Shown: in pieces, positions 23,198-63,722 of the stretch
Numbering within the stretch: the first letter of the stretch is position 1
How the letters are laid out: each line of letters starts with the position of its first letter
NCBI GenBank assembly: GCA_003313425.1
Contig: NHZP01000042.1
Location: 310,001-374,000 of the forward strand
Source of the DNA: Pseudopyrenochaeta lycopersici
Taxonomy: Eukaryota; Ascomycota; Dothideomycetes; Pleosporales; Pseudopyrenochaetaceae
Direction of reading: 5' to 3'
DNA: 64,000 nucleotides
Translations under genes and position numbers: made by a program
The notes under the pieces: generated by a model
Seen by the model: only the letters and a program-made list of their open reading frames with translations
Databases searched by the model: none
What the model was told of the DNA's origin: nothing

Positions 23198-23414
23198 TGT
23201 CAGATGAAATGCTGAAAAGCGCTTTGCAGAATTAATGATTGCGATAAATCGATTGTGTGTTGATCATGATTGTATTCATTGTTGAGTTCTGTCTCCTGCT
23301 TTCTTCTATATCTCCTCTGCTTCCGGAGGTTCCGTCGATTAGCAATAGTTATCGGTCCTACTATTTATCGCTCTTTCCTATGCAGTACTTCTGAGCTTCT
23401 CCTTATATCTGACA
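23198..23414 (-). mobile_element. Solo LTR of Copia type
   Basis: Bounded by TGTCAG and CTGACA. The reverse complement matches the LTR of the Copia element at 37297, sharing GCGATAAATAGTAGGA, CGATAACTATT and CGGAACCTCCGGAAGCAGAG, but it is longer (217 versus 163 bp) and diverged. It lies in the opposite orientation and abuts the PKS ER domain. No matching 5 bp target duplication is seen (GGATG versus AAATT). Confidence 0.82.
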
Positions 23415-40200: not shown

Positions 40201-42471
40201 TAAAGTTATCAACACAAGAGACGTAGTCTTCGACGAAAGCGTAGTGTTTAGTGGCAAAACGGAAGACCTCATGGATAACCTTATGCACAACACCCTGCAG
40301 GAGATTGCAACGTGGGTGAAAACGATTGAACTGCCTACACCACCGCGACAGGAACAGCCTGAGACTGGGTCGTTCTACGAAGACGATACAATAATGGGAG
40401 AGAGTTCAAGTCCACAAGGTCAAAAGTCAAGAGGTTGCCGAAGTAGAAAAGCGATGGACTCATACCCAACGCCGCCAGACACTCCGCCACCTGTAGCTCT
40501 CCTTAGCCAGGCGTGGACTGACGAACTTGAAGCTAATAGCATGACGACACAGGGCACGTCAAAAACAGAACCATGGGCAGCAGCATTTATGGCCGGCACT
40601 CAAGCAGGGCACGTAGGGGAACACGAAGGCAAGCTCATTGACAAGGCACAGCTGAAGAGAATGCTGGCAAAGGGGGTGAAGCCTCACCGAAACCAATTGC
40701 CACCTCTGCCGACGACTTACTCAAAGCTTGAAGATCATCCTCTGTACGAAATGTTCAAGGAAGCAGAACGAGAACACCTAAGGAGCCATGAACAAATGAA
40801 GTCCTGGGCTGAAGTGCCAATCACTCCCATCAAACGGAAAGGTCACCAAATATTAGACTGCATGTGGGTGTATACTTACAAATTGGACAAACACCATCGC
40901 CTTATTAAATGCAAAGCACGACTGGTCGTTCGCGGCGATCAGCAACGAAACATCACGTCACAAGACACATACGCAGCCACTTTAGCCAGCAGGTCTTTTC
41001 GAATGCTCATGGCAATCGCTGCCAAGTTCAACCTTGAACTCAAACAGTACGACGTTACTAACGCATTCGTGCATGCAACCATAGATAGAGAAATCTACAT
41101 GAGAATGCCACGAGGATACCAGAAGCCGGGAACGATCCTTAAGCTTGAAAAGGCACTTTACGGTCTTCGAATTTCACCGCTCCTATGGCAGAAAGAATTC
41201 GTCTCAACCCTCGCCAAACTAGGCTTCAAACAAGTGCCACATGAGGCCTGCTGCATGATCAAGGATGGCATTATCATCTTCTTTTACGTCGATGACATTA
41301 TCTTAGCCTATCACCAGAAGAAGGAGGTAGAAGCTCAACAAGCTATCAAGGCTCTTCAAGAAAGATACACCTTCACAGGTGGAGAAGACCTGCAATGGTT
41401 CCTTGGCGTTGAAGTTATCAGAGACCGAGAACAACGATTAATTCAACTCTCCCAGTTGGCCTATGCCGACAAAATTAGCAGACTTGCAGATAGGAAAGAT
41501 GTCCGACATGATACCCCAATGGCAAGCGTTGAACTCCAGCCACGCGAGGGATTAGCATCACCTTCAGAAGTCAACAAATACCAGCGTAAGATTGGTTCCT
41601 TACTATTTGCCGCCGTTACAACACGACCAGATATAGTCTTCGCAACATCGCGCCTTGCACGCTTCCTCGTCAACCCTGGCACGGAGCATCAGGAGGCTGC
41701 TGACAGAGTCCTGCTCTACCTTGCAGCGACAAAATCAAGAGCACTCCAATTGGGAGGAGGCGACAAGCTTGAAGTAGCCAGCGACGCATCATTTGCCGAT
41801 AATACAGTCGATAGAAAGAGTTCGCAAGGTTATGTGATTAAGCTATTCGGTGGTCTTGTTACCTGGAGAGCAAGTAAACAGGACACGGTCACTACCTCAA
41901 CGACTGAAGCAGAACTGCTCGCACTCTCCCAAGTAGCAAAGGAAGCTATCTTTACCTCGCGACTTCTCAAGGAGCTCCAGGTATCATTGCCGGAGTCGAC
42001 TATTACAATTCAATGCGACAATACACAGACAATTCGACTTGTTACGGAAGAGATTGCAAAACTTCAAACCAAACTTCGACATGTAGACATCCACAACCAC
42101 TGGCTACGACAAGAAGTATTGCTGGGACGAATTCAAGTTAAATACGTAGCGTCCTCGCAAATGCTAGCAGACGGACTTACCAAAGCGCTGCCCTCAAACA
42201 AATGGGAGAACTTTCTTAATCAATTAGGACTGGTAAACAAGAAACCGGTCTTAGCAAAAGAGTTAAAACTCGAAGACATACAGACTCAAACAGAGGATCT
42301 GACAATCGCATAAGATATAGGTTTGTGGCAGCTTAGAAGATCACTCTAAGCTGAGGGAGTGTGTCAGATTGTCAAATACAAGGAAAGAACGATAAATAGT
42401 AGGACCGATAACTATTGCGATCTACGGAACCTCCGGAAGCAGAGGAGCTATAGAAAAAAGGAACAGACAGA
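37297..42471 (+). mobile_element. Copia-type LTR retrotransposon, 3' LTR truncated
   Basis: The 5' LTR spans 37297-37459 (163 bp, TGTCAG..CTGACA). The 3' LTR starts at 42362 after a purine-rich tract (GCTGAGGGAG) and matches the 5' LTR closely, but stops after 110 bp at the edge of the inverted duplication. The internal order protease, integrase, reverse transcriptase, RNase H identifies Copia (Pseudoviridae-like). The LTRs differ at only a few positions, so insertion was recent. The downstream target duplication is lost. Confidence 0.93.
37577..42313 (+). pseudogene. Copia Gag-Pol polyprotein with three in-frame TGA codons
   Basis: One continuous frame from ATG 37577 to the stop before 42313, interrupted only by TGA at 37997-37999, 38813-38815 and 39299-39301. 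Gag carries a zinc knuckle (CPACGQRHNLLDC). Protease: FILDSGSTAHIC. Pre-integrase: WHKRLGHPGP. Integrase: catalytic residues in AIDFHDY, IETDNEI and GGGERSGGVIKEKA. Reverse transcriptase: FFYVDDIILAY. RNase H: VASDASFAD and TSTTEAELLAL. About 1580 codons in all. All three lesions are TGA, consistent with transition mutation. The downstream 980-codon pol frame is undamaged. Confidence 0.93.
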
Positions 42472-45400
42472 GCTACTTGGTCACAAAGATTCGATAGTGC
42501 AAGAAATTCACGAGGTAACGGGAATCGGCGTTCGAGCCCTTCAAGGAGGCTCTTTGTCTCAGTTCAGCGTTGATGAGCGAATGTCATGGTCTGCAAGACG
42601 CAAGACAAAACGTGAAGAAGACTCAGCATACTCTCTACTAGGCATTTTTGACATCCATATGCCGCTCATCTATGGTGAAGGAAGAGAGAAGGCGTTCAAA
42701 CGGCTCCGGGAAGAGATCGACAAGGCCTTAAAGGGTAGGCCGTTCTCTCATGTTACTACCATTCTTTATGAAGAGTACAGATGTCATTGACTGATAGGAA
42801 GTTATTGACTGGGAATAGGCACTAAAAGCGAGGAATTTTTAATCCCCTTCAGTCTCTCCGATGTTTCTGAAATCGAACACTTTGTGGCAAGGGAGGAAGA
42901 GCTCTCTGAAATGCACGCGGCGCTTTGCGGCAACAGCAGCCGTCGCACTGTTGTTCTTCACGGGTTAGGAGGCATTGGCAAGACTCAGCTTACTGTTGCG
43001 TACGCGAAGCAGCACAAGGACAACTACTCAGCTATATTCTGGCTAAATATCAAGGACGAGGATTCTTTGAAGCAGAGCTTTGCCAAGGTAGCGAAGCAAA
43101 TATTACGGGAACATCCTTCGGCCAGCCAGCTAAATGGTGTGGATATAAAAAGAAACCTCGACGAGGTGATTGATGCTGTCAAGGCGTGGTTAAGTTTCCG
43201 TGACAATACGCGATGGCTGATGATATACGACAACTACGACAACCCTAAAATACCTGGTAACACAGATTCCACTGCAGTGGATATCCGTAAATTTCTCCCC
43301 GAATCATATCAAGGTTCGGTCATTGTCACAACGCGGTTGTCACAAGTCAAAATCGGTCATCCTATCCGAATCATGAAGCTGGAGAATATGCGCGATAGTC
43401 TCGAGATTTTATCAAACGCCTCGGGACAAGAAGCATTAATAAACGGTAAGGGCCTCATAGATTTGCGGGTACAGCTCTGACTTCAATGCTAGATCCCGAC
43501 GCTGTAAGGCTTGCCGGAGAGCTAGATGGACTGCCCCTTGCCTTAGCTACAGCTGGAGCATACCTTGATCAAGCAGCGATAAGTTTCTCCGATTACCTTC
43601 GCCTATACAACGCGTCATGGGCGAAGCTCCAGAAGATAAGTCCTAAGCTAAGCTCGTACGAAGACGAAACACTTTATTCTACATGGCAGCTTTCATTCGA
43701 CCGTGTCAAACAACAGAACGAACTTTCAGCCAAGCTTCTTTGCCTTTGGGCATTCTTTGATAATCAGGATATCTGGTTCGAGCTTCTTCATGAAGGTCAC
43801 TTGGGCGGGCCGGAATGGTTTTCCAAGTTGACTGAAGATGAACTTAGCTTCAATGAGGCCATAAGAGTGCTGTGCAGCCATGGATTAATAGAGGTGGATG
43901 CATCGTCCAAAGGGTATGGCATAGAATCAAGGGGATACAGCATGCATGGCTGCGTTCATTCCTGGACAATACACGTCTTAAATCGCGAATGGGACGTCAA
44001 TGCCGCTGCATTGGCCCTTCGCTGTGTTGGTTCACATGTCCCCAAAGAAACGGAACGAGAATATTGGATAACGCGACGACGACTTATTCGGCATGCCCAT
44101 AGATGCCGATCCCTTTTGGCCAACGACAAGGTTAAGGAACATGGGAGTATATCAACACTGCATTCAATACACTCTCTTGGACTTCTGTTCGTGAGTCAGG
44201 GAAAGCTAGCTGAGGCTGAGGAAATGTACCAACACGCGCTACAAGGAAGGGAAAAGATACTCGGCCCAGAACACATATCAACACTAGAGACGATCAACAA
44301 CTTAGGCATCCTCTACAAAAATCAGGGAAGGTTAGATGAGGCAGAGAAGATGTACGAGCGTGCACTACAGGGAAGGGAAAAGGCACTCGGCCCAGAACAC
44401 ATATCAACACTAGACACGGTCAACAACTTAGGCATTCTCTACAAGAATCAAGGAAGGTTAGATGAGGCAGAGAAGATGTATGAGCGTGCACTACAGGGAA
44501 GGGAAAAGGCATTAGGTAGAGAGCACACATTAACGCTACTTACAGCCAACAACTTAGGCATCCTCTACAAAAAACAGGGGAGGTTAGATAAGGCAGAAAA
44601 AATGTACGAGCGTGCACTACAGGGAAGGGAAAAGGCACTCGGCCCAGAACACATATCAACACTAGAGACGATCAACAACTTAGGCATCCTCTACAAAAAT
44701 CAGGGAAGGTTAGATGAGGCAGAGAAGATGTACGAGCGTGCACTACAGGGAAGGGAAAAGGCACTCGGTCCAGAACACATATCAACACTAGACACGGTCA
44801 ACAACTTAGGCATTCTCTACAAGAATCAAGGAAGGTTAGATGAGGCAGAGAAGATGTACGAGCGTGCACTACAAGGAAATGAAAAGGCACTCGGTCCAGA
44901 GCATATATCAACACTAGATACGGTCAGTAGCTTGGGCACTCTCTACAAGAGTCAAGGGAGGCTGGACGAGGCAGAAAAGATGTACGAGCGGGCATTGCAA
45001 GGTAAGGAAACGATATTTGGTCCAGAGCATGCATCAACACTAGAAACGGTCAACAGTATAGGAGGTCTCTACAAGAATCAGGGAAAGCTAGACGAGGCAG
45101 AGAAGATGTACATGCGTGCACTGCAAGGATATGAGGTGGTACTCGGTCTAGAGCACATATCAACACTAGATACGGTTAACAGCTTGGGTACTCTCTACAA
45201 GAATCAGGGAAAGTTGACCGATGCAGAACAGATGCACCAGCGTGCACTGCGAGGGTACGAAACGGCACTTGGTCTAGGACATGTATCAACACTCTCCACG
45301 ATCGGCAACTTAGGCCTTCTCTACGCAGATCAGGGCAAGTTGGACCTGGCGGAACAGATGTATCAGCGCGCACTAAAAGGATACGAAACTACACTTGGTC

Positions 45401-45600
45401 CTAAGCGTATTGCCACTTACGTACCAGCCTTGTATACGCTATATAACTTGGGCAACCTCTATAAGACTCAAAGAAATCTGGATCTTGCGGAGAGGGTGTA
45501 TTCGCGAGCTTTGGACGGATTTCGGGCTGTTTTTGGGGCAGACCACCAGACATTTCGTGACCTTGCTCGGGTACTTTCGTCACTTAGAAGGGACGCATGA
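42470..45600 (+). pseudogene. HET/NB-ARC/TPR NLR, 5'-truncated copy
   Basis: Identical to the right-hand NLR from residue 161 on. Exons are 42470-42734, 42819-43445 and 43493-45600. The first 160 residues of the HET domain (motifs AILSHTW and WVDTCCID) are missing and replaced by Copia LTR. The frame stays open back through the LTR to 42359, but no ATG lies in frame there; the first in-frame ATG is in RMSWSARRK. NB-ARC and all eleven TPR units are intact. If the LTR supplies transcription, a shortened NLR could be made; otherwise the copy is silent. Confidence 0.9.
44143..45500 (+). repeat. Eleven TPR-coding 126 bp units (left copy)
   Basis: Units of 42 codons (126 bp). Units 1-2 and 4-5 are almost the same DNA, with identical runs such as GAGGCAGAGAAGATGTACGA. 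The last three units are more diverged. The same array is at 59802-61159 on the other arm. Confidence 0.85.
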
Positions 45601-45900
45601 GAGGGATTCCCCATATCATTGAAAGGCAGTCGATCAGATAAAGTGGTTGGGCCGCTTGCTAGCTTCATTAATCCATACACACACACACATACCAACACCA
45701 TCAGCATTGTCAAATATCGGCTACTTTCCCAGCTCCTACAGCGCATCGTCCGAAGGAATCAGGCGGATCACAAATGATCATCAGCCAGGTCGAACTCTCC
45801 CTTCTCATTAACCTGTTATTCCTCCGTCCTAGCTCGCCCGTTCCTAGAGAGATTACGAAGTCCGGCTTTTTGACGGTCAGCTGACCCAAGTTTGGAATAA
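45601..45900. other. Convergent intergenic spacer (left arm)
   Basis: 300 bp between the NLR 3' end and the HET-NACHT relic, with a short AC microsatellite at about 45675-45688. Mirror copy at 59402-59701. Confidence 0.5.
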
Positions 45901-46634
45901 TTACAGGAGCGACACAGAGGCAGCTGATTCCGCTCTCCACATATTACACGTACCACCACCATAATACTCACTCGGAAACCCTAGAGAGATGAGACCGTAC
46001 ATGTCCCGTTTCAATGTGGCAGACATGAGTGCAAGCGACTGAGAGAACATGCCGTAGTGAGTCTTGCTTTGGGATGGCAGAACTGTAGCCCGCGCCTCGT
46101 CGCTCAAGTAGTCCTTAGCCGATTGGTGGATGAGGTAGACCTGGTCATCTCGGATGGTGAGGAACGAGCCACACATGGCCACAATCTTTCTTACTTTACC
46201 CGTTAGTGCCCCAACCTGTCCAGCCAGTCCACACAAGCTGCCCATCTCGGCCAAGTAAAGTGGCCGGTATGCGATCGTTGCCGTAGAAAGCAGGAGCCGG
46301 GTGTCTCTGTCGCAGTGGACACTGAAACATCCGACAGGAATACGTAGCATTTGGTCGCATCTCTATACCAACGAAACATCGAGTTGATCGCTTTCGAGCG
46401 CTCACGAAGGTTCCATTTATCGATGCAACATGTGTCGATCCAAAAGTACTGCAGCTGATCCTGGGCCACCTGCTCAGCGCAGAACTCAATCTTTCGATAA
46501 CCGCCCCTCTCTGTGTAGGTGCCATTTTGCAGATCTTCAAAGAGAACCTCGTCATCTCCCCATCTGTGTGAAAGAATAGCATATGGCGGAATGCTCTTCC
46601 CATAAACGGGAATAGAAACAACGAACACGGCCAA
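45901..46634 (-). pseudogene. HET-NACHT NLR relic with internal deletion (left)
   Basis: The 46634-46280 part reads a HET N-terminus: PPYAILSHRWGDDEVLF, FWIDTCCIDKWN, AINSMFRWYRDATKCYVF. Then, in another frame (46350-45901), comes the region that follows the NACHT domain in HET-E/HNWD-type NLRs: IAYRPLYLAEMGSLCGL, VAMCGSFLTIRDDQVYLIHQ, SAKDYLSDEA. The rest of HET, the whole NACHT ATPase and any C-terminal repeats are gone, and the junction shifts frame. It is a second, independent NLR family member reduced to a scar. Transcription would converge with the NLR upstream. Confidence 0.85.
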
Positions 46635-46686
46635 CCTCCTGAAGTGCAGGCATCAATTGTAGACCAGTACCTACGGCCAGAGGCGG

Positions 46687-46950
46687 ATGAACAGCAAAGC
46701 AGCAGCAGCTCTCAAAGTAGATCTAGCTGCTTTACAAGTCATGTACATTGATTCCACTATTAGGAACAATACCTTTACAATCGGGAAGTCTAGGTCTGTT
46801 CCAAATATTACTATTTATGTTATAGCAAGTCCAGGTGGAAACAAAAAGTCTGTAGCAAGTGGAGATGAAGACAAGGGTAATGTCCAAAGCGAAGGGCCTC
46901 CAGCTCGATTAACACGATTAAGAAAAAGAGCTCGAACGGGCGGATCGTGA
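46687..46950 (+). CDS. Small ORF, unknown (left arm)
   Basis: 87 codons, ATG start, ending in a basic tail (RLTRLRKRARTGGS) that could be a nuclear signal. No recognised domain. It lies head-to-head with the HET-NACHT relic. It may be a chance frame or a gene remnant. Confidence 0.25.
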   Translation: MNSKAAAALKVDLAALQVMYIDSTIRNNTFTIGKSRSVPNITIYVIASPGGNKKSVASGDEDKGNVQSEGPPARLTRLRKRARTGGS

Positions 46951-47155
46951 GACTATGAATAGAGATTTAGACCCATCATAATACAGACTCAGACCTATCC
47001 CTTTTTATGTGAAATTGCTACTTTTGTCTTTTATGGAGAGCGTCTTGGGGAGGGGTGCGAAGCCCACTAATAAAATGGTGGCATTTGGCTCCGAAACAGT
47101 GGTAGATGGGGAATTATTTCGCCAAGTAGTGGTAAGGCGGTCTTTTGCCGAATCA

Positions 47156-47200
47156 CAAACGGTGATGTGATGCGATAGCTCATCACTGTTTGTGATGAGC
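47156..47200. repeat. Nested hairpins (left arm)
   Basis: A perfect 9 bp stem, GCTCATCAC (47178-47186) and GTGATGAGC (47192-47200), with a 5 base loop. It overlaps a wider pair, CACAAACGGTGATG and CATCACTGTTTGTG, with one mismatch, so two alternative foldings exist. Mirror copy at 58102-58146. Confidence 0.75.
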
Positions 47201-47271
47201 CGCTCCCAAAACACACCCTTAGCTATCAACCCGTATATATATAGGTCTCTAGCTTGTAGGCAGAACAATCA

Positions 47272-47520
47272 TCACTTCTTCTTCCTATTCTCAACAGTGT
47301 TGTAGTACTTATGCAAGCTTGGACTTATAAGAACTGGATTCACATTGCATCTCTCAACTGCAAGTTGAAGCCAGCTCTCATCCCTAAAAATTGCTCCCCA
47401 AAGCAAGTTATGAGACTGTTGGGCTGTTGTGCGCTTAAACTTAAATATTTCAGCCGCTTTTGAAGCTGAAAATGCTGGGAGATACGATGTGATAGAGTCC
47501 CAAATCTCCTGAACGTGCAT
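47272..47520 (-). CDS. F-box-like small protein (left arm)
   Basis: 82 codons from ATG 47520. The pattern IWDSITSYLPAFSASKAAEI, then NLLWGAIFRDESWLQLA and NPVLISPSLHKYY, resembles short fungal F-box-like proteins (helix, hydrophobic, W..IF.D..W), which recruit substrates to SCF ubiquitin ligases. It is very short and ends in a lysine-rich tail. A TATA-like TATATATC lies about 50 bases upstream. Family assignment is tentative. Confidence 0.5.
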   Translation of the reverse strand: MHVQEIWDSITSYLPAFSASKAAEIFKFKRTTAQQSHNLLWGAIFRDESWLQLAVERCNVNPVLISPSLHKYYNTVENRKKK

Positions 47521-49941
47521 AGTACTGTGTTGTAAAGCAGAGCAGAATCTTAGCCATTGGCTACTTATATATCAAATTTTAGTCTGTGCTTTAGCAATAC
47601 TCTCCTACAAATTTATAAGAATAATGTCCCTCCCTGCATGGCGAGACAATTACAAATATTGTTATAATTCCATGGAAATAATCTGCTGTAGCTAATCCTA
47701 AATATCTATAATCAACTTCCTTCCCAAAATCCCGCGCCTGATTTATAGAGCACCCTCTTTTCTAGCGTAATAGGCTCTCCTTCCTACAGCGCCAAAGGTA
47801 AGTCTTCTCTGCTCCGGATTTTCGTAAAATGGCCTTATCCTAGCCTCAGGGCCTCCCTCTGATGCTCGGAAGGGTACTTCCAGCGGAAGCGAACCTCCGA
47901 TCCTTGCTAATCTTCTTCAGCATGATCATCTGGGAAGCGATTTTTGCGTTTTCATTTTACTACCACTACATCCACACGCATATTGCCATGCGAAGGTCGG
48001 AAACCAAAACCTGAAAACCAAAACCTAGAACCTGAACATTAACGCCCTTTTATCCACTCCCGTGCTCTAGACACTGTCCTCCCGATAGAATGGATTATCC
48101 CCTCCTTTGCACCTTTCGAACACGGCCTGTCGTTATTTACAGATATGTATGCGCGAACGTTTATATGCGGCTGAGTATTGAACATAGGTATCCATCCTGA
48201 AATTGGGTGTAGCACCATTCCGGCTAAATGAGGCGCACAAGGAATCTAAGTTATACAGATATTTTAGCAACTTCACGCGCAGTCTTGGAGCCAAACTTTT
48301 CGATTAGTTCAGTCATGTTGAATGGTTCGGGCGCTTTGTTTTGATCTATAGCTTAAGTAATTATGTAAGCTGATAGAAGTAAGCCATGGGAAAGCGGAAA
48401 AGTTGCTGAAGCTAATGAATTGGGAGTGTTGACACAGTGGGTCATGATTCAAGAATCGGACTAACGTTACGGTGATAGCAGAATATCTTGAGGGGAGAGT
48501 GGGCCGAGAAGGGCGCCGCCACAACCTGACCAATCAGCATTGAGTGGCTGGCACATACCGCTTCGTCCCAACAAGCGATGCCAGACGCCTCATGCTTATT
48601 GGGCAGAGACATATGCCATCACATATATCAAGAAGTAGAAGTGCCACTTCGCTGAACACTGTTGCTCGGCTATTATCACTTAAGATAACGTCACTCACTG
48701 CGTGGCGGGACACACTGTGGTGGGACACTTTTTTCCGGGACTGTTGAAGCAAGTGATTGTATTCGTTGTTGTTTTTCTACAGGCGTGGTGCCTCACTCTT
48801 ATATATACACCCACTGCCCCTGTCACATATTGCTGTTTCAGTCACTGTGATGTTTGACAGTTACACTCCATATTTAATACATATTTTGTGCAATGAGAGG
48901 TAACATCCCCCACTACGTAGCGAGAACCACACCGTAGCGAGAAAGCCAACAGGTACTTAGACTTCAACACATCAGAAACTCTTCCTATGTCTAGCTATCT
49001 ATATTTTACTAATTAGATAGTATAACTTAGCTATTCCTAGACATCTAGAACCCCTTCAATCTAAAAATTACGTTACGTATCATCGCCTTCGCGCCTGATT
49101 TATAGAGAGCCTTATTCTTCAGCGAAACAGCGTTCCTTCCCTATAGCACCACTATTAAGCTCTTGCTACTCTATAATACTTATATAATAGTGCTATCTAA
49201 GCCTTAGAACCTTACTATAATACTTAGGAGTTATTACTAGCCTTATGTCTGCTGTCGCACGCAAATTTATGTAGGGTCGCTACCCTAATTGGTACCGCTC
49301 CGGAACGATTACCAGTTCTGGCTAGTGCAAAACAGCCACATAATTATCACAGGTACTCCATAATTTAGTGGCTGCCAGGCCTGTAGCGGTGTGAAGTCTT
49401 GGCAAGCGGGCCGACTTTAGCCCCGCAGCCTTGCGATCTAACTCAACCTTGGCCATGCCTCTAGTCAACCAACTCACCTCTTACAGAATTCGCCACCTCA
49501 CAACCCTATGGCTGGAGCGGGTCAGCCATCCTCCCTGCTAGCGTTACTAAGGTGTTCGCGCGCTTCTCGAGATATAAGCATATTCGTCTAGTCGCTTACG
49601 AATTTACCTTCTGCTGAAGCCTGACTACTGCATGTCAGCCTTACCGCGCCACACTAGGCGGTGCAATCAGTTCACGAAGCTGAGCCGCAGGATCTCGACT
49701 CGGGCGCATCACCTTAATGAGCGAGCACGCAAGGAAAGCACCATTGCATTTATCAACTACCTAATGAGTGGACTGACATAGAAATGCTGAAAAATCAAAG
49801 GATAGTAGTCGTACGGAAAGGAGATAACGAGCAAACGGCTCGAGAAAGCCACATCTATACCTTATCCTTGTTATCCTTTGCGCTCTGCTGCATGTCAGCG
49901 CCACCGGGCCATCCGATCGCTCTCCTCCGTCCGGTAGCAGT
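47521..49941. other. Non-coding 2.4 kb of left arm
   Basis: No supported gene; short frames at 48309-48752 show no motif. It contains two related blocks of about 60 bp (47734-47794 and 49090-49150, both starting CGCGCCTGATTTATAGAG), and near 49515 a motif (GGTCAGCCATCCTCCCT) that recurs near 63520 in reverse. Probably old repeat remains. Mirror at 55361-57781. Confidence 0.5.
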
Positions 49942-50655
49942 TTAGGTCGCCCTCTCAATCTTAACCTTTAGTCCATGCACCTTCTCCATATGAACTCGGA
50001 CCTTGTCGATCCGCGGGTACGCGTAGGTGCAGGACTGAACGAGGCACTGATAGGCCGTTACTTCCTGGCGCTGGTGGATAGTACGCATGTGGCGGCGGAA
50101 CTCTGCAGGCCGACCGAAGGTCTTGTTGCAGCCAGGCCAGGTGCAGTGCTTGCGGTTGCTGCTTGGCAGTGGTATGCTTGAGGCTGAGTCGCTGTAGGGC
50201 AAGGCTAGCGCTGGCGCGATTGGTTGAAGTGCGCTTCCAGAGAAGGCTGGCGCTGGCGCGATTAGTTGAAATGCGAAGCCATTGTTGTTGAAGGCTGCCT
50301 TGCTTTGTGGAAACAGATAGCTGTTAATGGACATGTCGGCTGAGCCCAAGGCGGGAGCGAAGAGGTCCTCATTGGCGGAGGGGTAGCCCTGAGAAACCTG
50401 CAAGGGCGCAGCAGACCAGTCGGCAGAGCCCAAGGCGGGAGCGAAGAGGTCCTCATTGGCGGAGGGGTAGCCCTGAGAAACCTGCAAGGGTGCAGCAGAC
50501 CAGTCGGCAGAGCCCAAGGCGGGAGCGAAGAGGTCCTCATTGGCGGAGGGGTAGCCCTGAGAAACCTGCAAGGGTGCAGCAGACCAGTCGGCAGAGCCAA
50601 AGGCGGGAGCGAAGAGGTCCTCATTGGCGGAGGGGTAGCCCTGAGAAACCTGCAA
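49942..50655 (-). CDS. C2H2 zinc-finger protein with 29-aa repeats (left)
   Basis: The open frame has four tandem 29-residue units (LQVSQGYPSANEDLFAPA..) at its N-terminus, then a Pro/Ala/Ser-rich linker, then two C2H2 fingers: CTWPGCNKTFGRPAEFRRH..H and CLVQSCTYAYPRIDKVRVH..H. It is a likely DNA-binding regulator. The first codon of the long frame is TTG inside a repeat; the real start must be in an upstream exon, because coding continues (NAYSGAQTQTAP) to an acceptor-like CTAATGCAAG near 50695. The four 87 bp units are nearly identical. Confidence 0.75.
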   Translation of the reverse strand: MQVSQGYPSANEDLFAPAFGSADWSAAPLQVSQGYPSANEDLFAPALGSADWSAAPLQVSQGYPSANEDLFAPALGSADWSAAPLQVSQGYPSANEDLFAPALGSADMSINSYLFPQSKAAFNNNGFAFQLIAPAPAFSGSALQPIAPALALPYSDSASSIPLPSSNRKHCTWPGCNKTFGRPAEFRRHMRTIHQRQEVTAYQCLVQSCTYAYPRIDKVRVHMEKVHGLKVKIERAT

Positions 50656-50954
50656 GGGTGCAGTTTGCGTTTGAGCACCGCTGTAGGCGTTCTTGCATTA
50701 GCGTAAAAAAAAAACCCTTACATAACACCTGTACTCCTGTTTATTAATAGAGGAGATTCTGCTAATCTCCCTAAGAAATAGCCTCTGGTATGATTGGACA
50801 TAATGTAGTACGATACAACGTCCGAGAAGTAGACTTCGAAGGCTAAAGGTAATTAAATAGGCAATAGAGTATGGCTTAGGAGGCGAAAAGGCTTTTCAAA
50901 GGATGGCGAGGGAGGCTATCTAAGTATCCAGCGAAAATTTTCAAGCTGCAGCTA

Positions 50955-51009
50955 AAGGGCAACCAATAGGAGTTTGCGACCGCGCCCCGTCTCCTCACTG
51001 GTTGCCCTT
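50955..51009. repeat. 11 bp perfect inverted repeat (left arm)
   Basis: AAGGGCAACCA (50955-50965) and TGGTTGCCCTT (50999-51009) separated by 33 bases of GC-rich sequence, between the divergent zinc-finger and ankyrin genes. It could be a regulator site or an element end. Mirror at 54293-54347. Confidence 0.7.
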
Positions 51010-51188
51010 CCCGCCTAGGAGCCCCCATCACCAAAAGCTGATTTTGCATAATGGCAGGGCAGCCGCAGAAGCATTAGATATTATAAGCTACTTATTAACT
51101 AATAACGCTCAAGACCTTTGGAGCATTTATAGTCAAATGACAGATAATTTATATTATCCAAGACTCTAAGATCTCCCTTCGTTCACCA

Positions 51189-53306: not shown

Positions 53307-53519
53307 CCCTTTTCACCACCCGCCTCCGCGGATCAGTTTTCCTTACATACCGTTTTAGACTGTCACAGCACCCCATGCCACGTGCTAGCCCGAGGCTAGC
53401 GTCTCGCTTAGTTTCCTTTGCAGCCCACATTGCGTGTGTGTAGCTTCCTACTCTTTACGGCATAACTCAGTTAGTATAATCAACCTGCGTTCTACTCCGT
53501 GATAGAGATTCGAGCTTAT

Positions 53520-54113
53520 AATTTGCAACTAAATGTTTCGGGAGTAAAACTGCTTAAGTGGTGGATCTGTGACTGGCTCTAGAAGTTCAATGAGGTACTG
53601 CTGTTACGATCCAGGATCGAGGCGCGGGGCTCGGCCCTTATGATGGCGCGCCTGGTACGACTTCGGATAGGAGACCCCACGTGACCAGGCCTCGCTGCAG
53701 GTCACGTAACGTGTCATGGGATGTCACAATGTCCCACCGTAAGATTTCGTGAGATCCGTGAGATATCCTGGGACGACCAAGTATATAGCTCTCCGTGAGT
53801 GCTCCCGGGAACACTCGTGGTTAATCTTGCAGCCTTCATTACAATCAGAACAGATAGACTGCCCTATACTCTCTATTGTGAAGGTGGCGCCTGATATCCT
53901 GCTCACTCCCCGAGAACCAACCCGGGTCTTTAACACTAGCCACTCTAAGACCCAGTCCTGTTTGTTAGATCAGAGATCTCAACAGTAAAATCTCGCATCA
54001 AGACTTCTGTGCATGGCTCTATGTCTGCAAAGGTCGTGTCTTCGTTTAAACATTTTGTCGCAGCTATCGCACTGGAATCGCCCAGAATGAAGTTTATTAA
54101 CAGATGCTTCCAT
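53520..54113 (-). pseudogene. Zinc-finger/ankyrin paralogue remnant with LTR inside
   Basis: From ATG 54113 the first finger is identical to the ankyrin gene, then two substitutions appear (RSLDARFYC instead of RSLASRFYC) and a solo LTR interrupts at 53984. Beyond the LTR, 53520-53601 still resembles the gene's next stretch on the minus strand (GTACCTCATTG.., GAGCCAGTC..), but is strongly diverged and then fades. The product would be about 44 residues. So the right inner end is an old, damaged paralogue, not simply a cut edge. Confidence 0.7.
53602..53984 (+). mobile_element. Solo LTR at centre of the palindrome
   Basis: Starts TGTTACGATCC and ends CTCAACA (TGTT/AACA termini); a TATATAG box lies near 53782. 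Length 383 bp. It is not related to the Copia LTR by eye; a Gypsy-type origin is possible. No matching 5 bp target duplication (ACTGC versus GTAAA). Confidence 0.65.
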
Positions 54114-54646
54114 TGGTGAACGAAGGGAGATCTTAGAGTCTTGGATAATATAAATTATCTGTCATTTGACTATAAATGCTCCAAAGGTCTTGAGCGTTAT
54201 TAGTTAATAAGTAGCTTATAATATCTAATGCTTCTGCGGCTGCCCTGCCATTATGCAAAATCAGCTTTTGGTGATGGGGGCTCCTAGGCGGGAAGGGCAA
54301 CCAGTGAGGAGACGGGGCGCGGTCGCAAACTCCTATTGGTTGCCCTTTAGCTGCAGCTTGAAAATTTTCGCTGGATACTTAGATAGCCTCCCTCGCCATC
54401 CTTTGAAAAGCCTTTTCGCCTCCTAAGCCATACTCTATTGCCTATTTAATTACCTTTAGCCTTCGAAGTCTACTTCTCGGACGTTGTATCGTACTACATT
54501 ATGTCCAATCATACCAGAGGCTATTTCTTAGGGAGATTAGCAGAATCTCCTCTATTAATAAACAGGAGTACAGGTGTTATGTAAGGGTTTTTTTTTTACG
54601 CTAATGCAAGAACGCCTACAGCGGTGCTCAAACGCAAACTGCACCC

Positions 54647-55360
54647 TTGCAGGTTTCTCAGGGCTACCCCTCCGCCAATGAGGACCTCTTCGCTCCCGCC
54701 TTTGGCTCTGCCGACTGGTCTGCTGCACCCTTGCAGGTTTCTCAGGGCTACCCCTCCGCCAATGAGGACCTCTTCGCTCCCGCCTTGGGCTCTGCCGACT
54801 GGTCTGCTGCACCCTTGCAGGTTTCTCAGGGCTACCCCTCCGCCAATGAGGACCTCTTCGCTCCCGCCTTGGGCTCTGCCGACTGGTCTGCTGCGCCCTT
54901 GCAGGTTTCTCAGGGCTACCCCTCCGCCAATGAGGACCTCTTCGCTCCCGCCTTGGGCTCAGCCGACATGTCCATTAACAGCTATCTGTTTCCACAAAGC
55001 AAGGCAGCCTTCAACAACAATGGCTTCGCATTTCAACTAATCGCGCCAGCGCCAGCCTTCTCTGGAAGCGCACTTCAACCAATCGCGCCAGCGCTAGCCT
55101 TGCCCTACAGCGACTCAGCCTCAAGCATACCACTGCCAAGCAGCAACCGCAAGCACTGCACCTGGCCTGGCTGCAACAAGACCTTCGGTCGGCCTGCAGA
55201 GTTCCGCCGCCACATGCGTACTATCCACCAGCGCCAGGAAGTAACGGCCTATCAGTGCCTCGTTCAGTCCTGCACCTACGCGTACCCGCGGATCGACAAG
55301 GTCCGAGTTCATATGGAGAAGGTGCATGGACTAAAGGTTAAGATTGAGAGGGCGACCTAA
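54647..55360 (+). CDS. C2H2 zinc-finger protein with 29-aa repeats (right)
   Basis: Identical mirror copy of the gene at 49942-50655: four 87 bp units, two C2H2 fingers, stop at 55360. The same upstream acceptor-like signal lies near 54607. Confidence 0.75.
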   Translation: MQVSQGYPSANEDLFAPAFGSADWSAAPLQVSQGYPSANEDLFAPALGSADWSAAPLQVSQGYPSANEDLFAPALGSADWSAAPLQVSQGYPSANEDLFAPALGSADMSINSYLFPQSKAAFNNNGFAFQLIAPAPAFSGSALQPIAPALALPYSDSASSIPLPSSNRKHCTWPGCNKTFGRPAEFRRHMRTIHQRQEVTAYQCLVQSCTYAYPRIDKVRVHMEKVHGLKVKIERAT

Positions 55361-57781
55361 ACTGCTACCGGACGGAGGAGAGCGATCGGATGGCCCGGTG
55401 GCGCTGACATGCAGCAGAGCGCAAAGGATAACAAGGATAAGGTATAGATGTGGCTTTCTCGAGCCGTTTGCTCGTTATCTCCTTTCCGTACGACTACTAT
55501 CCTTTGATTTTTCAGCATTTCTATGTCAGTCCACTCATTAGGTAGTTGATAAATGCAATGGTGCTTTCCTTGCGTGCTCGCTCATTAAGGTGATGCGCCC
55601 GAGTCGAGATCCTGCGGCTCAGCTTCGTGAACTGATTGCACCGCCTAGTGTGGCGCGGTAAGGCTGACATGCAGTAGTCAGGCTTCAGCAGAAGGTAAAT
55701 TCGTAAGCGACTAGACGAATATGCTTATATCTCGAGAAGCGCGCGAACACCTTAGTAACGCTAGCAGGGAGGATGGCTGACCCGCTCCAGCCATAGGGTT
55801 GTGAGGTGGCGAATTCTGTAAGAGGTGAGTTGGTTGACTAGAGGCATGGCCAAGGTTGAGTTAGATCGCAAGGCTGCGGGGCTAAAGTCGGCCCGCTTGC
55901 CAAGACTTCACACCGCTACAGGCCTGGCAGCCACTAAATTATGGAGTACCTGTGATAATTATGTGGCTGTTTTGCACTAGCCAGAACTGGTAATCGTTCC
56001 GGAGCGGTACCAATTAGGGTAGCGACCCTACATAAATTTGCGTGCGACAGCAGACATAAGGCTAGTAATAACTCCTAAGTATTATAGTAAGGTTCTAAGG
56101 CTTAGATAGCACTATTATATAAGTATTATAGAGTAGCAAGAGCTTAATAGTGGTGCTATAGGGAAGGAACGCTGTTTCGCTGAAGAATAAGGCTCTCTAT
56201 AAATCAGGCGCGAAGGCGATGATACGTAACGTAATTTTTAGATTGAAGGGGTTCTAGATGTCTAGGAATAGCTAAGTTATACTATCTAATTAGTAAAATA
56301 TAGATAGCTAGACATAGGAAGAGTTTCTGATGTGTTGAAGTCTAAGTACCTGTTGGCTTTCTCGCTACGGTGTGGTTCTCGCTACGTAGTGGGGGATGTT
56401 ACCTCTCATTGCACAAAATATGTATTAAATATGGAGTGTAACTGTCAAACATCACAGTGACTGAAACAGCAATATGTGACAGGGGCAGTGGGTGTATATA
56501 TAAGAGTGAGGCACCACGCCTGTAGAAAAACAACAACGAATACAATCACTTGCTTCAACAGTCCCGGAAAAAAGTGTCCCACCACAGTGTGTCCCGCCAC
56601 GCAGTGAGTGACGTTATCTTAAGTGATAATAGCCGAGCAACAGTGTTCAGCGAAGTGGCACTTCTACTTCTTGATATATGTGATGGCATATGTCTCTGCC
56701 CAATAAGCATGAGGCGTCTGGCATCGCTTGTTGGGACGAAGCGGTATGTGCCAGCCACTCAATGCTGATTGGTCAGGTTGTGGCGGCGCCCTTCTCGGCC
56801 CACTCTCCCCTCAAGATATTCTGCTATCACCGTAACGTTAGTCCGATTCTTGAATCATGACCCACTGTGTCAACACTCCCAATTCATTAGCTTCAGCAAC
56901 TTTTCCGCTTTCCCATGGCTTACTTCTATCAGCTTACATAATTACTTAAGCTATAGATCAAAACAAAGCGCCCGAACCATTCAACATGACTGAACTAATC
57001 GAAAAGTTTGGCTCCAAGACTGCGCGTGAAGTTGCTAAAATATCTGTATAACTTAGATTCCTTGTGCGCCTCATTTAGCCGGAATGGTGCTACACCCAAT
57101 TTCAGGATGGATACCTATGTTCAATACTCAGCCGCATATAAACGTTCGCGCATACATATCTGTAAATAACGACAGGCCGTGTTCGAAAGGTGCAAAGGAG
57201 GGGATAATCCATTCTATCGGGAGGACAGTGTCTAGAGCACGGGAGTGGATAAAAGGGCGTTAATGTTCAGGTTCTAGGTTTTGGTTTTCAGGTTTTGGTT
57301 TCCGACCTTCGCATGGCAATATGCGTGTGGATGTAGTGGTAGTAAAATGAAAACGCAAAAATCGCTTCCCAGATGATCATGCTGAAGAAGATTAGCAAGG
57401 ATCGGAGGTTCGCTTCCGCTGGAAGTACCCTTCCGAGCATCAGAGGGAGGCCCTGAGGCTAGGATAAGGCCATTTTACGAAAATCCGGAGCAGAGAAGAC
57501 TTACCTTTGGCGCTGTAGGAAGGAGAGCCTATTACGCTAGAAAAGAGGGTGCTCTATAAATCAGGCGCGGGATTTTGGGAAGGAAGTTGATTATAGATAT
57601 TTAGGATTAGCTACAGCAGATTATTTCCATGGAATTATAACAATATTTGTAATTGTCTCGCCATGCAGGGAGGGACATTATTCTTATAAATTTGTAGGAG
57701 AGTATTGCTAAAGCACAGACTAAAATTTGATATATAAGTAGCCAATGGCTAAGATTCTGCTCTGCTTTACAACACAGTACT
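55361..57781. other. Non-coding 2.4 kb of right arm
   Basis: Mirror of 47521-49941 with the same repeat blocks at 57508-57568 and 56152-56212. No gene recognised. Confidence 0.5.
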
Positions 57782-58030
57782 ATGCACGTTCAGGAGATTT
57801 GGGACTCTATCACATCGTATCTCCCAGCATTTTCAGCTTCAAAAGCGGCTGAAATATTTAAGTTTAAGCGCACAACAGCCCAACAGTCTCATAACTTGCT
57901 TTGGGGAGCAATTTTTAGGGATGAGAGCTGGCTTCAACTTGCAGTTGAGAGATGCAATGTGAATCCAGTTCTTATAAGTCCAAGCTTGCATAAGTACTAC
58001 AACACTGTTGAGAATAGGAAGAAGAAGTGA
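57782..58030 (+). CDS. F-box-like small protein (right arm)
   Basis: Identical mirror of the ORF at 47272-47520, with the same upstream sequence for more than 2 kb, so any promoter is duplicated with it. Confidence 0.5.
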   Translation: MHVQEIWDSITSYLPAFSASKAAEIFKFKRTTAQQSHNLLWGAIFRDESWLQLAVERCNVNPVLISPSLHKYYNTVENRKKK

Positions 58031-58351
58031 TGATTGTTCTGCCTACAAGCTAGAGACCTATATATATACGGGTTGATAGCTAAGGGTGTGTTTTGGGAGC
58101 GGCTCATCACAAACAGTGATGAGCTATCGCATCACATCACCGTTTGTGATTCGGCAAAAGACCGCCTTACCACTACTTGGCGAAATAATTCCCCATCTAC
58201 CACTGTTTCGGAGCCAAATGCCACCATTTTATTAGTGGGCTTCGCACCCCTCCCCAAGACGCTCTCCATAAAAGACAAAAGTAGCAATTTCACATAAAAA
58301 GGGATAGGTCTGAGTCTGTATTATGATGGGTCTAAATCTCTATTCATAGTC

Positions 58352-58615
58352 TCACGATCCGCCCGTTCGAGCTCTTTTTCTTAATCGTGTTAATCGAGCT
58401 GGAGGCCCTTCGCTTTGGACATTACCCTTGTCTTCATCTCCACTTGCTACAGACTTTTTGTTTCCACCTGGACTTGCTATAACATAAATAGTAATATTTG
58501 GAACAGACCTAGACTTCCCGATTGTAAAGGTATTGTTCCTAATAGTGGAATCAATGTACATGACTTGTAAAGCAGCTAGATCTACTTTGAGAGCTGCTGC
58601 TGCTTTGCTGTTCAT
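58352..58615 (-). CDS. Small ORF, unknown (right arm)
   Basis: Identical mirror of the 87-codon ORF at 46687-46950. Doubling by the inverted duplication adds no independent evidence of coding. Confidence 0.25.
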   Translation of the reverse strand: MNSKAAAALKVDLAALQVMYIDSTIRNNTFTIGKSRSVPNITIYVIASPGGNKKSVASGDEDKGNVQSEGPPARLTRLRKRARTGGS

Positions 58616-58667
58616 CCGCCTCTGGCCGTAGGTACTGGTCTACAATTGATGCCTGCACTTCAGGAGG

Positions 58668-59401
58668 TTGGCCGTGTTCGTTGTTTCTATTCCCGTTTAT
58701 GGGAAGAGCATTCCGCCATATGCTATTCTTTCACACAGATGGGGAGATGACGAGGTTCTCTTTGAAGATCTGCAAAATGGCACCTACACAGAGAGGGGCG
58801 GTTATCGAAAGATTGAGTTCTGCGCTGAGCAGGTGGCCCAGGATCAGCTGCAGTACTTTTGGATCGACACATGTTGCATCGATAAATGGAACCTTCGTGA
58901 GCGCTCGAAAGCGATCAACTCGATGTTTCGTTGGTATAGAGATGCGACCAAATGCTACGTATTCCTGTCGGATGTTTCAGTGTCCACTGCGACAGAGACA
59001 CCCGGCTCCTGCTTTCTACGGCAACGATCGCATACCGGCCACTTTACTTGGCCGAGATGGGCAGCTTGTGTGGACTGGCTGGACAGGTTGGGGCACTAAC
59101 GGGTAAAGTAAGAAAGATTGTGGCCATGTGTGGCTCGTTCCTCACCATCCGAGATGACCAGGTCTACCTCATCCACCAATCGGCTAAGGACTACTTGAGC
59201 GACGAGGCGCGGGCTACAGTTCTGCCATCCCAAAGCAAGACTCACTACGGCATGTTCTCTCAGTCGCTTGCACTCATGTCTGCCACATTGAAACGGGACA
59301 TGTACGGTCTCATCTCTCTAGGGTTTCCGAGTGAGTATTATGGTGGTGGTACGTGTAATATGTGGAGAGCGGAATCAGCTGCCTCTGTGTCGCTCCTGTA
59401 A
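58668..59401 (+). pseudogene. HET-NACHT NLR relic with internal deletion (right)
   Basis: Exact mirror copy of the relic at 45901-46634: HET N-terminus from 58668, then the post-NACHT region in a second frame to 59401. The same deletion junction and frame shift are present, so the damage predates the duplication or was spread by conversion. Confidence 0.85.
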
Positions 59402-59701
59402 TTATTCCAAACTTGGGTCAGCTGACCGTCAAAAAGCCGGACTTCGTAATCTCTCTAGGAACGGGCGAGCTAGGACGGAGGAATAACAGGTTAATGAGAA
59501 GGGAGAGTTCGACCTGGCTGATGATCATTTGTGATCCGCCTGATTCCTTCGGACGATGCGCTGTAGGAGCTGGGAAAGTAGCCGATATTTGACAATGCTG
59601 ATGGTGTTGGTATGTGTGTGTGTGTATGGATTAATGAAGCTAGCAAGCGGCCCAACCACTTTATCTGATCGACTGCCTTTCAATGATATGGGGAATCCCT
59701 C

Positions 59702-62700
59702 TCATGCGTCCCTTCTAAGTGACGAAAGTACCCGAGCAAGGTCACGAAATGTCTGGTGGTCTGCCCCAAAAACAGCCCGAAATCCGTCCAAAGCTCGCGA
59801 ATACACCCTCTCCGCAAGATCCAGATTTCTTTGAGTCTTATAGAGGTTGCCCAAGTTATATAGCGTATACAAGGCTGGTACGTAAGTGGCAATACGCTTA
59901 GGACCAAGTGTAGTTTCGTATCCTTTTAGTGCGCGCTGATACATCTGTTCCGCCAGGTCCAACTTGCCCTGATCTGCGTAGAGAAGGCCTAAGTTGCCGA
60001 TCGTGGAGAGTGTTGATACATGTCCTAGACCAAGTGCCGTTTCGTACCCTCGCAGTGCACGCTGGTGCATCTGTTCTGCATCGGTCAACTTTCCCTGATT
60101 CTTGTAGAGAGTACCCAAGCTGTTAACCGTATCTAGTGTTGATATGTGCTCTAGACCGAGTACCACCTCATATCCTTGCAGTGCACGCATGTACATCTTC
60201 TCTGCCTCGTCTAGCTTTCCCTGATTCTTGTAGAGACCTCCTATACTGTTGACCGTTTCTAGTGTTGATGCATGCTCTGGACCAAATATCGTTTCCTTAC
60301 CTTGCAATGCCCGCTCGTACATCTTTTCTGCCTCGTCCAGCCTCCCTTGACTCTTGTAGAGAGTGCCCAAGCTACTGACCGTATCTAGTGTTGATATATG
60401 CTCTGGACCGAGTGCCTTTTCATTTCCTTGTAGTGCACGCTCGTACATCTTCTCTGCCTCATCTAACCTTCCTTGATTCTTGTAGAGAATGCCTAAGTTG
60501 TTGACCGTGTCTAGTGTTGATATGTGTTCTGGACCGAGTGCCTTTTCCCTTCCCTGTAGTGCACGCTCGTACATCTTCTCTGCCTCATCTAACCTTCCCT
60601 GATTTTTGTAGAGGATGCCTAAGTTGTTGATCGTCTCTAGTGTTGATATGTGTTCTGGGCCGAGTGCCTTTTCCCTTCCCTGTAGTGCACGCTCGTACAT
60701 TTTTTCTGCCTTATCTAACCTCCCCTGTTTTTTGTAGAGGATGCCTAAGTTGTTGGCTGTAAGTAGCGTTAATGTGTGCTCTCTACCTAATGCCTTTTCC
60801 CTTCCCTGTAGTGCACGCTCATACATCTTCTCTGCCTCATCTAACCTTCCTTGATTCTTGTAGAGAATGCCTAAGTTGTTGACCGTGTCTAGTGTTGATA
60901 TGTGTTCTGGGCCGAGTGCCTTTTCCCTTCCCTGTAGTGCACGCTCGTACATCTTCTCTGCCTCATCTAACCTTCCCTGATTTTTGTAGAGGATGCCTAA
61001 GTTGTTGATCGTCTCTAGTGTTGATATGTGTTCTGGGCCGAGTATCTTTTCCCTTCCTTGTAGCGCGTGTTGGTACATTTCCTCAGCCTCAGCTAGCTTT
61101 CCCTGACTCACGAACAGAAGTCCAAGAGAGTGTATTGAATGCAGTGTTGATATACTCCCATGTTCCTTAACCTTGTCGTTGGCCAAAAGGGATCGGCATC
61201 TATGGGCATGCCGAATAAGTCGTCGTCGCGTTATCCAATATTCTCGTTCCGTTTCTTTGGGGACATGTGAACCAACACAGCGAAGGGCCAATGCAGCGGC
61301 ATTGACGTCCCATTCGCGATTTAAGACGTGTATTGTCCAGGAATGAACGCAGCCATGCATGCTGTATCCCCTTGATTCTATGCCATACCCTTTGGACGAT
61401 GCATCCACCTCTATTAATCCATGGCTGCACAGCACTCTTATGGCCTCATTGAAGCTAAGTTCATCTTCAGTCAACTTGGAAAACCATTCCGGCCCGCCCA
61501 AGTGACCTTCATGAAGAAGCTCGAACCAGATATCCTGATTATCAAAGAATGCCCAAAGGCAAAGAAGCTTGGCTGAAAGTTCGTTCTGTTGTTTGACACG
61601 GTCGAATGAAAGCTGCCATGTAGAATAAAGTGTTTCGTCTTCGTACGAGCTTAGCTTAGGACTTATCTTCTGGAGCTTCGCCCATGACGCGTTGTATAGG
61701 CGAAGGTAATCGGAGAAACTTATCGCTGCTTGATCAAGGTATGCTCCAGCTGTAGCTAAGGCAAGGGGCAGTCCATCTAGCTCTCCGGCAAGCCTTACAG
61801 CGTCGGGATCTAGCATTGAAGTCAGAGCTGTACCCGCAAATCTATGAGGCCCTTACCGTTTATTAATGCTTCTTGTCCCGAGGCGTTTGATAAAATCTCG
61901 AGACTATCGCGCATATTCTCCAGCTTCATGATTCGGATAGGATGACCGATTTTGACTTGTGACAACCGCGTTGTGACAATGACCGAACCTTGATATGATT
62001 CGGGGAGAAATTTACGGATATCCACTGCAGTGGAATCTGTGTTACCAGGTATTTTAGGGTTGTCGTAGTTGTCGTATATCATCAGCCATCGCGTATTGTC
62101 ACGGAAACTTAACCACGCCTTGACAGCATCAATCACCTCGTCGAGGTTTCTTTTTATATCCACACCATTTAGCTGGCTGGCCGAAGGATGTTCCCGTAAT
62201 ATTTGCTTCGCTACCTTGGCAAAGCTCTGCTTCAAAGAATCCTCGTCCTTGATATTTAGCCAGAATATAGCTGAGTAGTTGTCCTTGTGCTGCTTCGCGT
62301 ACGCAACAGTAAGCTGAGTCTTGCCAATGCCTCCTAACCCGTGAAGAACAACAGTGCGACGGCTGCTGTTGCCGCAAAGCGCCGCGTGCATTTCAGAGAG
62401 CTCTTCCTCCCTTGCCACAAAGTGTTCGATTTCAGAAACATCGGAGAGACTGAAGGGGATTAAAAATTCCTCGCTTTTAGTGCCTATTCCCAGTCAATAA
62501 CTTCCTATCAGTCAATGACATCTGTACTCTTCATAAAGAATGGTAGTAACATGAGAGAACGGCCTACCCTTTAAGGCCTTGTCGATCTCTTCCCGGAGCC
62601 GTTTGAACGCCTTCTCTCTTCCTTCACCATAGATGAGCGGCATATGGATGTCAAAAATGCCTAGTAGAGAGTATGCTGAGTCTTCTTCACGTTTTGTCTT

Positions 62701-63312
62701 GCGTCTTGCAGACCATGACATTCGCTCATCAACGCTGAACTGAGACAAAGAGCCTCCTTGAAGGGCTCGAACGCCGATTCCCGTTACCTCGTGAATTTCT
62801 TGCACTATCGAATCTTTGTGACCAAGTAGCTCGCCCTCTGCAGAAAAGAATTCCACACATGACGGAGCAAGAAGCTCTTGCAGCGTCCAGCCCCGTTTAA
62901 ACCATCTGCTGTACCGAAAGGCTGATTTCCACGCCTGCTGAGAGGATAGATCATTATGAATGTAACCATTAATCGAAACATCCGGTAGATACACGTAGCA
63001 TTTAGCTGCATCATGGTACCAGCGGAACATGGAGTTGATGGCTTCTGAGAGCTCAGCGCTGCTCGATTTGTCGATGCAGCAAGTATCCACCCAGAAGTGC
63101 CTCAGGCCATCGCGAGTTGCTTGCTCTGCGCAGAAGCGAAGCTTTTTGTATCCAGCTTTTGTCCTCCTAGAGTCCATTGTCAAGTCTTTGAAGTTAACCT
63201 CGTCATGATCCTCTCCCCATGTGTGCGAAAGAATGGCGTAGGGAGGGATGTTGCCGATTAGATCGTCGGTCAAGTTGAACTCGCCGTTCTCGTCAACTTG
63301 TAAAAGGCGCAT
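59702..63312 (-). CDS. HET/NB-ARC/TPR NLR-type receptor
   Basis: Three exons (63312-62568, 62483-61857, 61809-59702) joined by introns of 84 and 47 bp give 1159 aa. HET domain, residues 1 to about 245: PPYAILSHTWGEDHDEV, HFWVDTCCIDKSS, EAINSMFRWYHDAAKCY, SRWFKRGWTLQELLAPS. NB-ARC: P-loop GLGGIGKTQL, Walker B WLMIYDNYD, GSVIVTTR, GLPLALATAGAYL. C-terminus: eleven kinesin-light-chain-like TPR units of 42 residues (LGxLYxxQGxLDEAExMYxRAL), several nearly identical in DNA. Fungal NLR proteins of this build sense non-self through the repeats, oligomerise through NB-ARC and act through HET in regulated cell death; ligand and partner here are unknown. The first ATG sits just before the HET core. The 3' two exons lie in the inverted duplication, the HET 5' half outside it. 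Confidence 0.93.
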
Positions 63313-63722
63313 TGTCGGGAGCGGATATCATGGCAGGTCGTACGTGTGAAATGGGCGGAGAGCGGGGTAGTTGAATCAGCTGCTGCCTTTGTGGCGGTCA
63401 GCCGGCCGCTTTCTTTGTACCGAAAATCCCGCTATAACAGAGTTAGCGATAGCATAATTAGCGATATTTACACCGGCGATTAAAGCGCTAAATACTTTGA
63501 ACTTGCCACCACTAGTAGGGAGGATGGCCGACCCGTATCGGCCACACACTTTCGCGAGAGGCGAATGGCCTGCCAGCGAGGGTGTGGAGAGAGCTATGGT
63601 CGGCCCCTGGGCGGCGAGACCACGGGGATGATTGCTTCCCGCGGACACCGGATGTATCAAATAGCAGCACGCGTAGAATCGCCTCTGCCGTTGCTGATTT
63701 GTCTCCATAGGGTGAATGACCG
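63313..63722. other. Upstream region of the complete NLR
   Basis: Includes the NLR promoter and a stretch with repeated TTAGCGATA motifs (63440-63470). The block CTAGTAGGGAGGATGGCCGA at 63513 matches sequence inside the arms (near 49530 reversed), suggesting a shared repeat end. Confidence 0.45.

Follow-up and report, generated by a model that had tools for sequence, protein, structure and literature searches.

A near-perfect 8.8 kb palindrome in a fungal genome with one whole and one truncated NLR gene: a candidate repair-born inverted duplication

Introduction

Large sex-chromosome palindromes are kept identical by arm-to-arm conversion. In yeast, inverted duplications that form by fold-back are centred on short, imperfect inverted repeats, and they are healed via repeats or near Ty/delta elements, according to the sections available to us of two studies (PMC10622511, PMC10164571). 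The available sections of the former add that nearly all clones had their mismatches corrected and that wild-type cells rarely show the fold-back class, repair mutants having supplied most of the cases (PMC10622511). Those of the latter report that, compared to a spacer of 12 bp, one of 1.5 kb cut inverted-repeat rearrangements 31-fold in wild-type yeast (PMC10164571).

Here we describe a palindrome in a window of 64,000 nucleotides (C42:310001-374000) from a genome of 62.7 Mb in 188 contigs. If it is real, it is a natural inverted duplication of which both edges can be read, and it would show how a fungal immune gene was copied, truncated and joined to a retroelement.

Results

Two identical inverted arms surround a unique centre

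The palindrome is present in the assembly (Table 1). In a pairwise comparison the two arms were reverse complements of each other over all 8,834 bp, without a single difference or indel. Complementarity was 100% about a constant coordinate sum of 105302 in each 200-bp step from 42600 to 51199, ending at 42470 and 51303, and every 25-mer of the arm (8,810/8,810) was common to both. Chance cannot account for this identity. The arm length, the absence of indels, the coordinate sum and the 2.7 kb centre given by the initial annotation are thus all borne out.

A genome search found no third place for the full 8,834-bp arm among the matches listed (best 40 of 399 candidates scored), while portions of it recurred, among those matches, at C43, C69, C66, C25 and C34. 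The innermost ~1.6 kb (arm positions 7202-8834) had no counterpart elsewhere among the matches listed, simple repeats being skipped. The centre was found at full length at one genome place; the next-best match listed was 69% identical (ankyrin repeats), and no near-identical copy was listed elsewhere, again with simple repeats skipped. We considered an older matching palindrome at C34 and rejected it: the pieces there are inverted, yet they are scrambled and lack colinearity. At C69:75881-79399 and C66:92411-95855, arm positions 3350-3502 (3404-3502 at C66) lie reversed beside NLR copies, perhaps through a small local inversion.

Table 1. Features of the palindrome and its flanks, in window coordinates.
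Feature	Position	Strand	Remarks
Left arm	42470..51303	+	8,834 bp; no mismatch with reverse-complemented 53999-62832
Right arm	53999..62832	-	Colinear with C43 from 58185 outward
Centre between arms	51304..53998	.	2,695 bp
Copia retroelement	37297..42469	+	3' LTR starts at 42360
~640-bp repeat, left copy	48901..49544	+	Outer end TAACATCCCCCACTACG
~640-bp repeat, right copy	55758..56401	-	Mirror of left copy
Complete HET/NB-ARC/TPR gene	59702..63312	-	1,159 aa; Pfam HET, NB-ARC, TPR
Left NLR copy	42470..45600	+	Cut inside the HET exon, without HET domain (ORFs, Pfam)
C2H2 zinc-finger/ankyrin gene, intact	51189..53306	+	102-bp (34-aa) repeats
Mirror of zinc-finger/ankyrin start (homologous part)	53985..54113	-	Frame stops after 44 codons
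Solo-LTR-like stretch	53602..53984	.	383 bp; TG...CA on either strand
Diverged zinc-finger gene homology, continuation	53550..53601	-	~55 bp; local score 35
C2H2 zinc-finger ORF, left copy	49942..50697	-	About four 84-bp repeats
C2H2 zinc-finger ORF, right copy	54605..55360	+	Pfam zf-C2H2
HET-domain relic, left copy	45901..46711	-	Several frames; Pfam match made on right copy
HET-domain relic, right copy	58591..59401	+	Pfam HET on 58650-59099; frame-broken

The outer edges differ

On the left, the arm abuts a Copia element whose 3' LTR ends at 42469 after 110 bp. In other copies this LTR is ~162 bp long, a length matched by 7/7 of the Copia copies that we fetched. The cut LTR and the arm overlap by 2 bp, 'GA'. 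Insertion of the Copia element was rejected as the cause of the left boundary, as its 3' LTR is cut short and the window to the left of the element yielded no further part of the HET exon. Further left, beyond a transposon-rich stretch, lie ORFs at 18366-23235 that look polyketide-synthase-like from their translation.

On the right there is no junction, and the sequence is colinear with C43 far past the arm. C43 matches both arms at 42470-47117/58185-62832 and beyond that tracks the right copy only. This colinearity runs to 72738, where the fetched part of C43 stops, so that 58185-72738 (window numbering, past the window end) and C43:379801-393000 form a segmental duplication of >13 kb with 99.7-99.9% identity; C42 holds ~1.35 kb that is missing in C43 and overlaps a Tc1-like transposase ORF. 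One outer end is continuous and the other is a novel junction, the arrangement expected of a repair-born inverted duplication.

Imperfect inverted homology lies at the inner edges

The start codon of the zinc-finger/ankyrin gene, at 51189, lies inside the left arm, and a mirror fragment of the gene's start spans the opposite edge. Past the last identical inner base, 14/16 bases match (2 of the 16 being part of an LTR end); the solo-LTR-like stretch follows, and then a diverged homology to the same gene. None of 5000 shuffles reached the score of this homology (0/5000). Among random window stretches 7/5000 scored at least as high, and these may overlap the locus itself; we therefore base significance on the shuffles. 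The intervening stretch would be an LTR judging by its ends, one of which shows a 74% match at C43:278762-278902; no target-site duplication was found at 53602..53984.

The centre thus carries the inverted homology expected of a repair-born inverted duplication, a feature missing from the initial annotation. On the other hand, its mismatches are not corrected to the template: those at 51304 and 51306 sit right at the edge and differ from their partner bases. In our view this would count against a repair-born duplication without excluding it, since correction is usual but not universal in yeast.

Only the right NLR copy is complete

The right NLR gene has exons at 63312-62568, 62483-61857 and 61809-59702, separated by introns of 84 and 47 nt. 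This model fits the relatives and holds in three paralogues, and on that evidence a 29-nt second intron was dropped in favour of the 47-nt one. Because the HET exon ORF (stop-to-stop, 62512-63327) reaches 495 bp past the arm, with its first 165 residues outside it, the whole NLR exists on the right only. The Pfam HET match covers residues 30-114 of this ORF; in the left copy these residues would fall beyond 42470, and the whole Pfam-matched HET domain is missing. A HET domain, a nucleotide-binding domain and C-terminal repeats within one open gene, as an NLR should have, are found on the right and not on the left. The right gene is, by its predicted structure, an ordinary HET-NLR, and the left copy, without HET, is probably non-functional.

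This gene structure is likewise open at C43, C69 and C66, where the products differ from it by 5, 19 and 25 amino acids respectively, and the C42 gene is therefore one member of a dispersed family. Database relatives of the right NLR, from Elaphomyces, Leptodophora and other ascomycetes at the top, are 46-69% identical among the matches listed (120 of 7,909), the top match having 67% identity over 99% of the query. No solved structure was found for the HET exon ORF at E<=1e-3. Pfam searches returned many HET and NB-ARC/NACHT matches in the genome, which together with the top database relatives would point to a filamentous ascomycete. Matches to HET, NACHT or NB-ARC with equal scores occur on pairs of larger and short contigs (C73/C111, C34/C88, C34/C96 and C57/C121), which may be either duplicated segments or duplicate contigs.

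The initial annotation had spoken of a duplicated NLR immune locus with an NLR relic, an F-box-like ORF and a zinc-finger gene in each arm. NLR sequence does lie in both arms, but the duplication of the gene is partial, the left copy lacking its HET domain. The relic is likewise present twice, although what remains of it is a frame-broken HET remnant. A C2H2 ORF was found in each arm, as claimed. No F-box turned up among the ORFs scanned, which were 8 in a first set (Pfam, E<=1e-3) and five arm ORFs in a second (E<=0.01). Uniform, frame-keeping tandem repeats occur in three genes, at 50335-50663 (84 bp), 44196-45381 (126 bp) and 51600-53266 (102 bp).

A ~640-bp repeat forms inverted pairs, 8 of 13 around immune-gene domains

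Each arm carries one copy of a ~640-bp repeat that has at least 40 copies in the genome (44 matches listed, best 40 of 97 candidates scored); for this count, split copies at C5 and C68 were merged and short tail rows at C13:874323 and C68:51497 dropped. Among the matches listed, 14 couples of neighbouring copies lay within 25 kb of each other; 13 of them were arranged + then -, one was -- and none was - then + or ++. This geometry is not chance. The 13 inverted pairs lie at C42, C54, C14 (two), C46, C13, C43, C5 (two), C68, C34, C45 and C2.

A listed HET, NACHT or NB-ARC domain is enclosed by 8/13 pairs, compared to averages of 1.2 and 1.7 in random placements. Eight enclosing pairs were reached by 1/20,000 trials when placement was within 100 kb and by 0/20,000 on the same contig, the lengths of C2 and C13 being approximate in this procedure. 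The HET list comprises 150 matches (150 of 520 candidates scored), so the immune-domain counts rest on the matches listed. Inside the C45 pair lie weaker HET and ankyrin matches, and inside the C42 pair an ankyrin gene; those at C2, C34 and C68 enclose nothing among the domain matches listed.

The outer ends of the repeat are sharp. At 8/10 of the ends read outside C42, unrelated flanks begin within one base of TAACATCC; the other two, both at C34, have more of the C42 flank in common. Inverted repeats at both ends and sharp outer ends are what a TIR DNA transposon would have. However, no target-site duplication was found at C54, C14 or C46 (3/3 tested; the flanks at C42 are mirrored), and of the 107 Pfam MULE transposase matches in the genome one, a weak one (C34:440992, E 1.6e-5), lies inside one of the 13 pairs when compared by eye. 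We therefore make no transposon claim.

The arms are more alike than C42 and C43

With 0/8,834 differences, the 95% upper bound on arm-to-arm divergence is 0.034% per site. C42 and C43 differ by 23 substitutions over 9,769 bp and by 5 over 3,436 bp. Assuming similar rates, the copying between left and right, or else the latest homogenisation, would be younger than the C42-C43 duplication. RIP was rejected as a source of divergence: a CpA/TpG context was found for 1/16 and 1/3 of the transitions between C42 and C43 (2/19).

Discussion

On balance we think it probable that the palindrome is a recent repair-born inverted segmental duplication, formed by fold-back or break-induced replication, in which one NLR is whole and the other truncated. 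Such an origin fits arms that are identical and edges of which one is homologous and the other, at a retroelement, nonhomologous. On this reading the right arm would have existed first. An end left by a break on the left side of the ankyrin gene would have annealed with the inverted remnant of the zinc-finger gene on the right-hand side, or invaded it; synthesis would then have run outward for 8.8 kb with the right arm as template, and the end so made would have been joined to Copia-flanked sequence. We infer the timing and direction of this copying from the layout of the locus. The short and interrupted inner homology speaks against a fold-back origin, and with no more than 2 bp in common at the outer join there is too little for homology-driven healing at Copia to be claimed.

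The uncorrected edge mismatches and the rarity of fold-back duplications in wild-type yeast leave room for gene conversion, in which an older inverted duplication had its arms homogenised recently. We regard this as unlikely. The sharp drop at the inner edge from 100% identity to diverged homology is what conversion could produce, and at C14 (97.4%) and C46 (99.7%) each copy of the ~640-bp repeat is most closely related to its own mate, which makes exchange within inverted pairs plausible. Yet the mates at C54 (95.6%) are no closer mutually than to other loci, those at C34 are only 80.1% alike with one diverged in its inner part, and a conversion tract would have to span the whole arm with no difference left in 8,834 bp. 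An assembly artefact, whether similar arms collapsed into one consensus or a misjoin across a dispersed repeat, we consider quite unlikely. Parts of the arm do occur at C43, C69, C66, C25 and C34, and identity stops where homology weakens, as a consensus collapse would give; but this assembly separates repeats of 99.7% identity over 9.8 kb (C42/C43) as well as many Copia copies, and the innermost ~1.6 kb of the arm and the centre have no near-identical copy elsewhere among the matches listed. A fold-back chimera predicts neither a 2.7 kb centre nor two different outer flanks, and as a sole explanation it is disfavoured by these and by the diverged inner homology.

It is highly improbable that the palindrome is a functional switch in which inversion, hairpin RNA or copy-number change governs NLR expression. 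Identical inverted arms are able to recombine, and an RNA that starts in the centre and runs on into an arm would presumably form a hairpin. However, crossing-over between the arms flips the centre and leaves the ankyrin gene, the C2H2 ORFs and the NLR copies unchanged, so an inversion switch would have no visible output, and the left NLR lacks HET. The control by inversion that had been suggested for this locus is not supported: the arms are identical, the ankyrin start codon at 51189 and its presumed promoter lie inside the arm, and a flip rebuilds the same genes. The accompanying argument from palindrome instability is softened by the 2.7 kb spacer, given the spacer effect in yeast. The palindrome has no demonstrated function, as judged from its sequence.

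The palindrome itself is of modest novelty; the possible immune-gene cassette is the more novel lead, and the pattern merits separate study. The ~640-bp inverted pairs could be the concrete means by which fungal NLR genes spread. Tentatively, and with more doubt than belief, we suggest that HET/NLR cassettes bounded by these repeats are mobile or recombination-prone and spread immune genes, and that the palindrome is one such cassette extended by repair synthesis. In a search chiefly of titles and abstract openings that took in few subscription papers or preprints, we found no account of fungal NLR genes flanked by inverted repeats, and such repeats are not described in the available sections of PMC1805685 and PMC12258605.

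Comparison with known systems

The locus shares near-perfect arms and a unique spacer with sex-chromosome palindromes, but its arms do not both keep an intact immune gene.

With the yeast fold-back inverted duplications, as presented in the available sections of PMC10622511 and PMC10164571, it shares imperfect central inverted homology, duplicated arms and an outer end healed through or near repeats. In contrast to them, its centre is 2.7 kb long, an LTR-like stretch interrupts the homology and the edge mismatches are uncorrected. The C42 event is also natural and undated, while the yeast cases come mostly from mutants.

Long inverted repeats and copy-number change by breakage-fusion-bridge are described in Candida albicans (PMC7371428, available sections); these are likewise fungal long inverted repeats that act as rearrangement substrates. 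In the assembled sequence of C42 we saw no amplification, dicentric or drug link.

Like the HET/STAND NLR families of filamentous ascomycetes, as described in the available sections of PMC1805685 and PMC12258605, the C42 NLR has a HET domain, a nucleotide-binding domain and near-identical C-terminal repeats, and it is multicopy. It differs from them in having TPR and NB-ARC instead of NACHT-WD40, and in that one copy lies across the palindrome edge.
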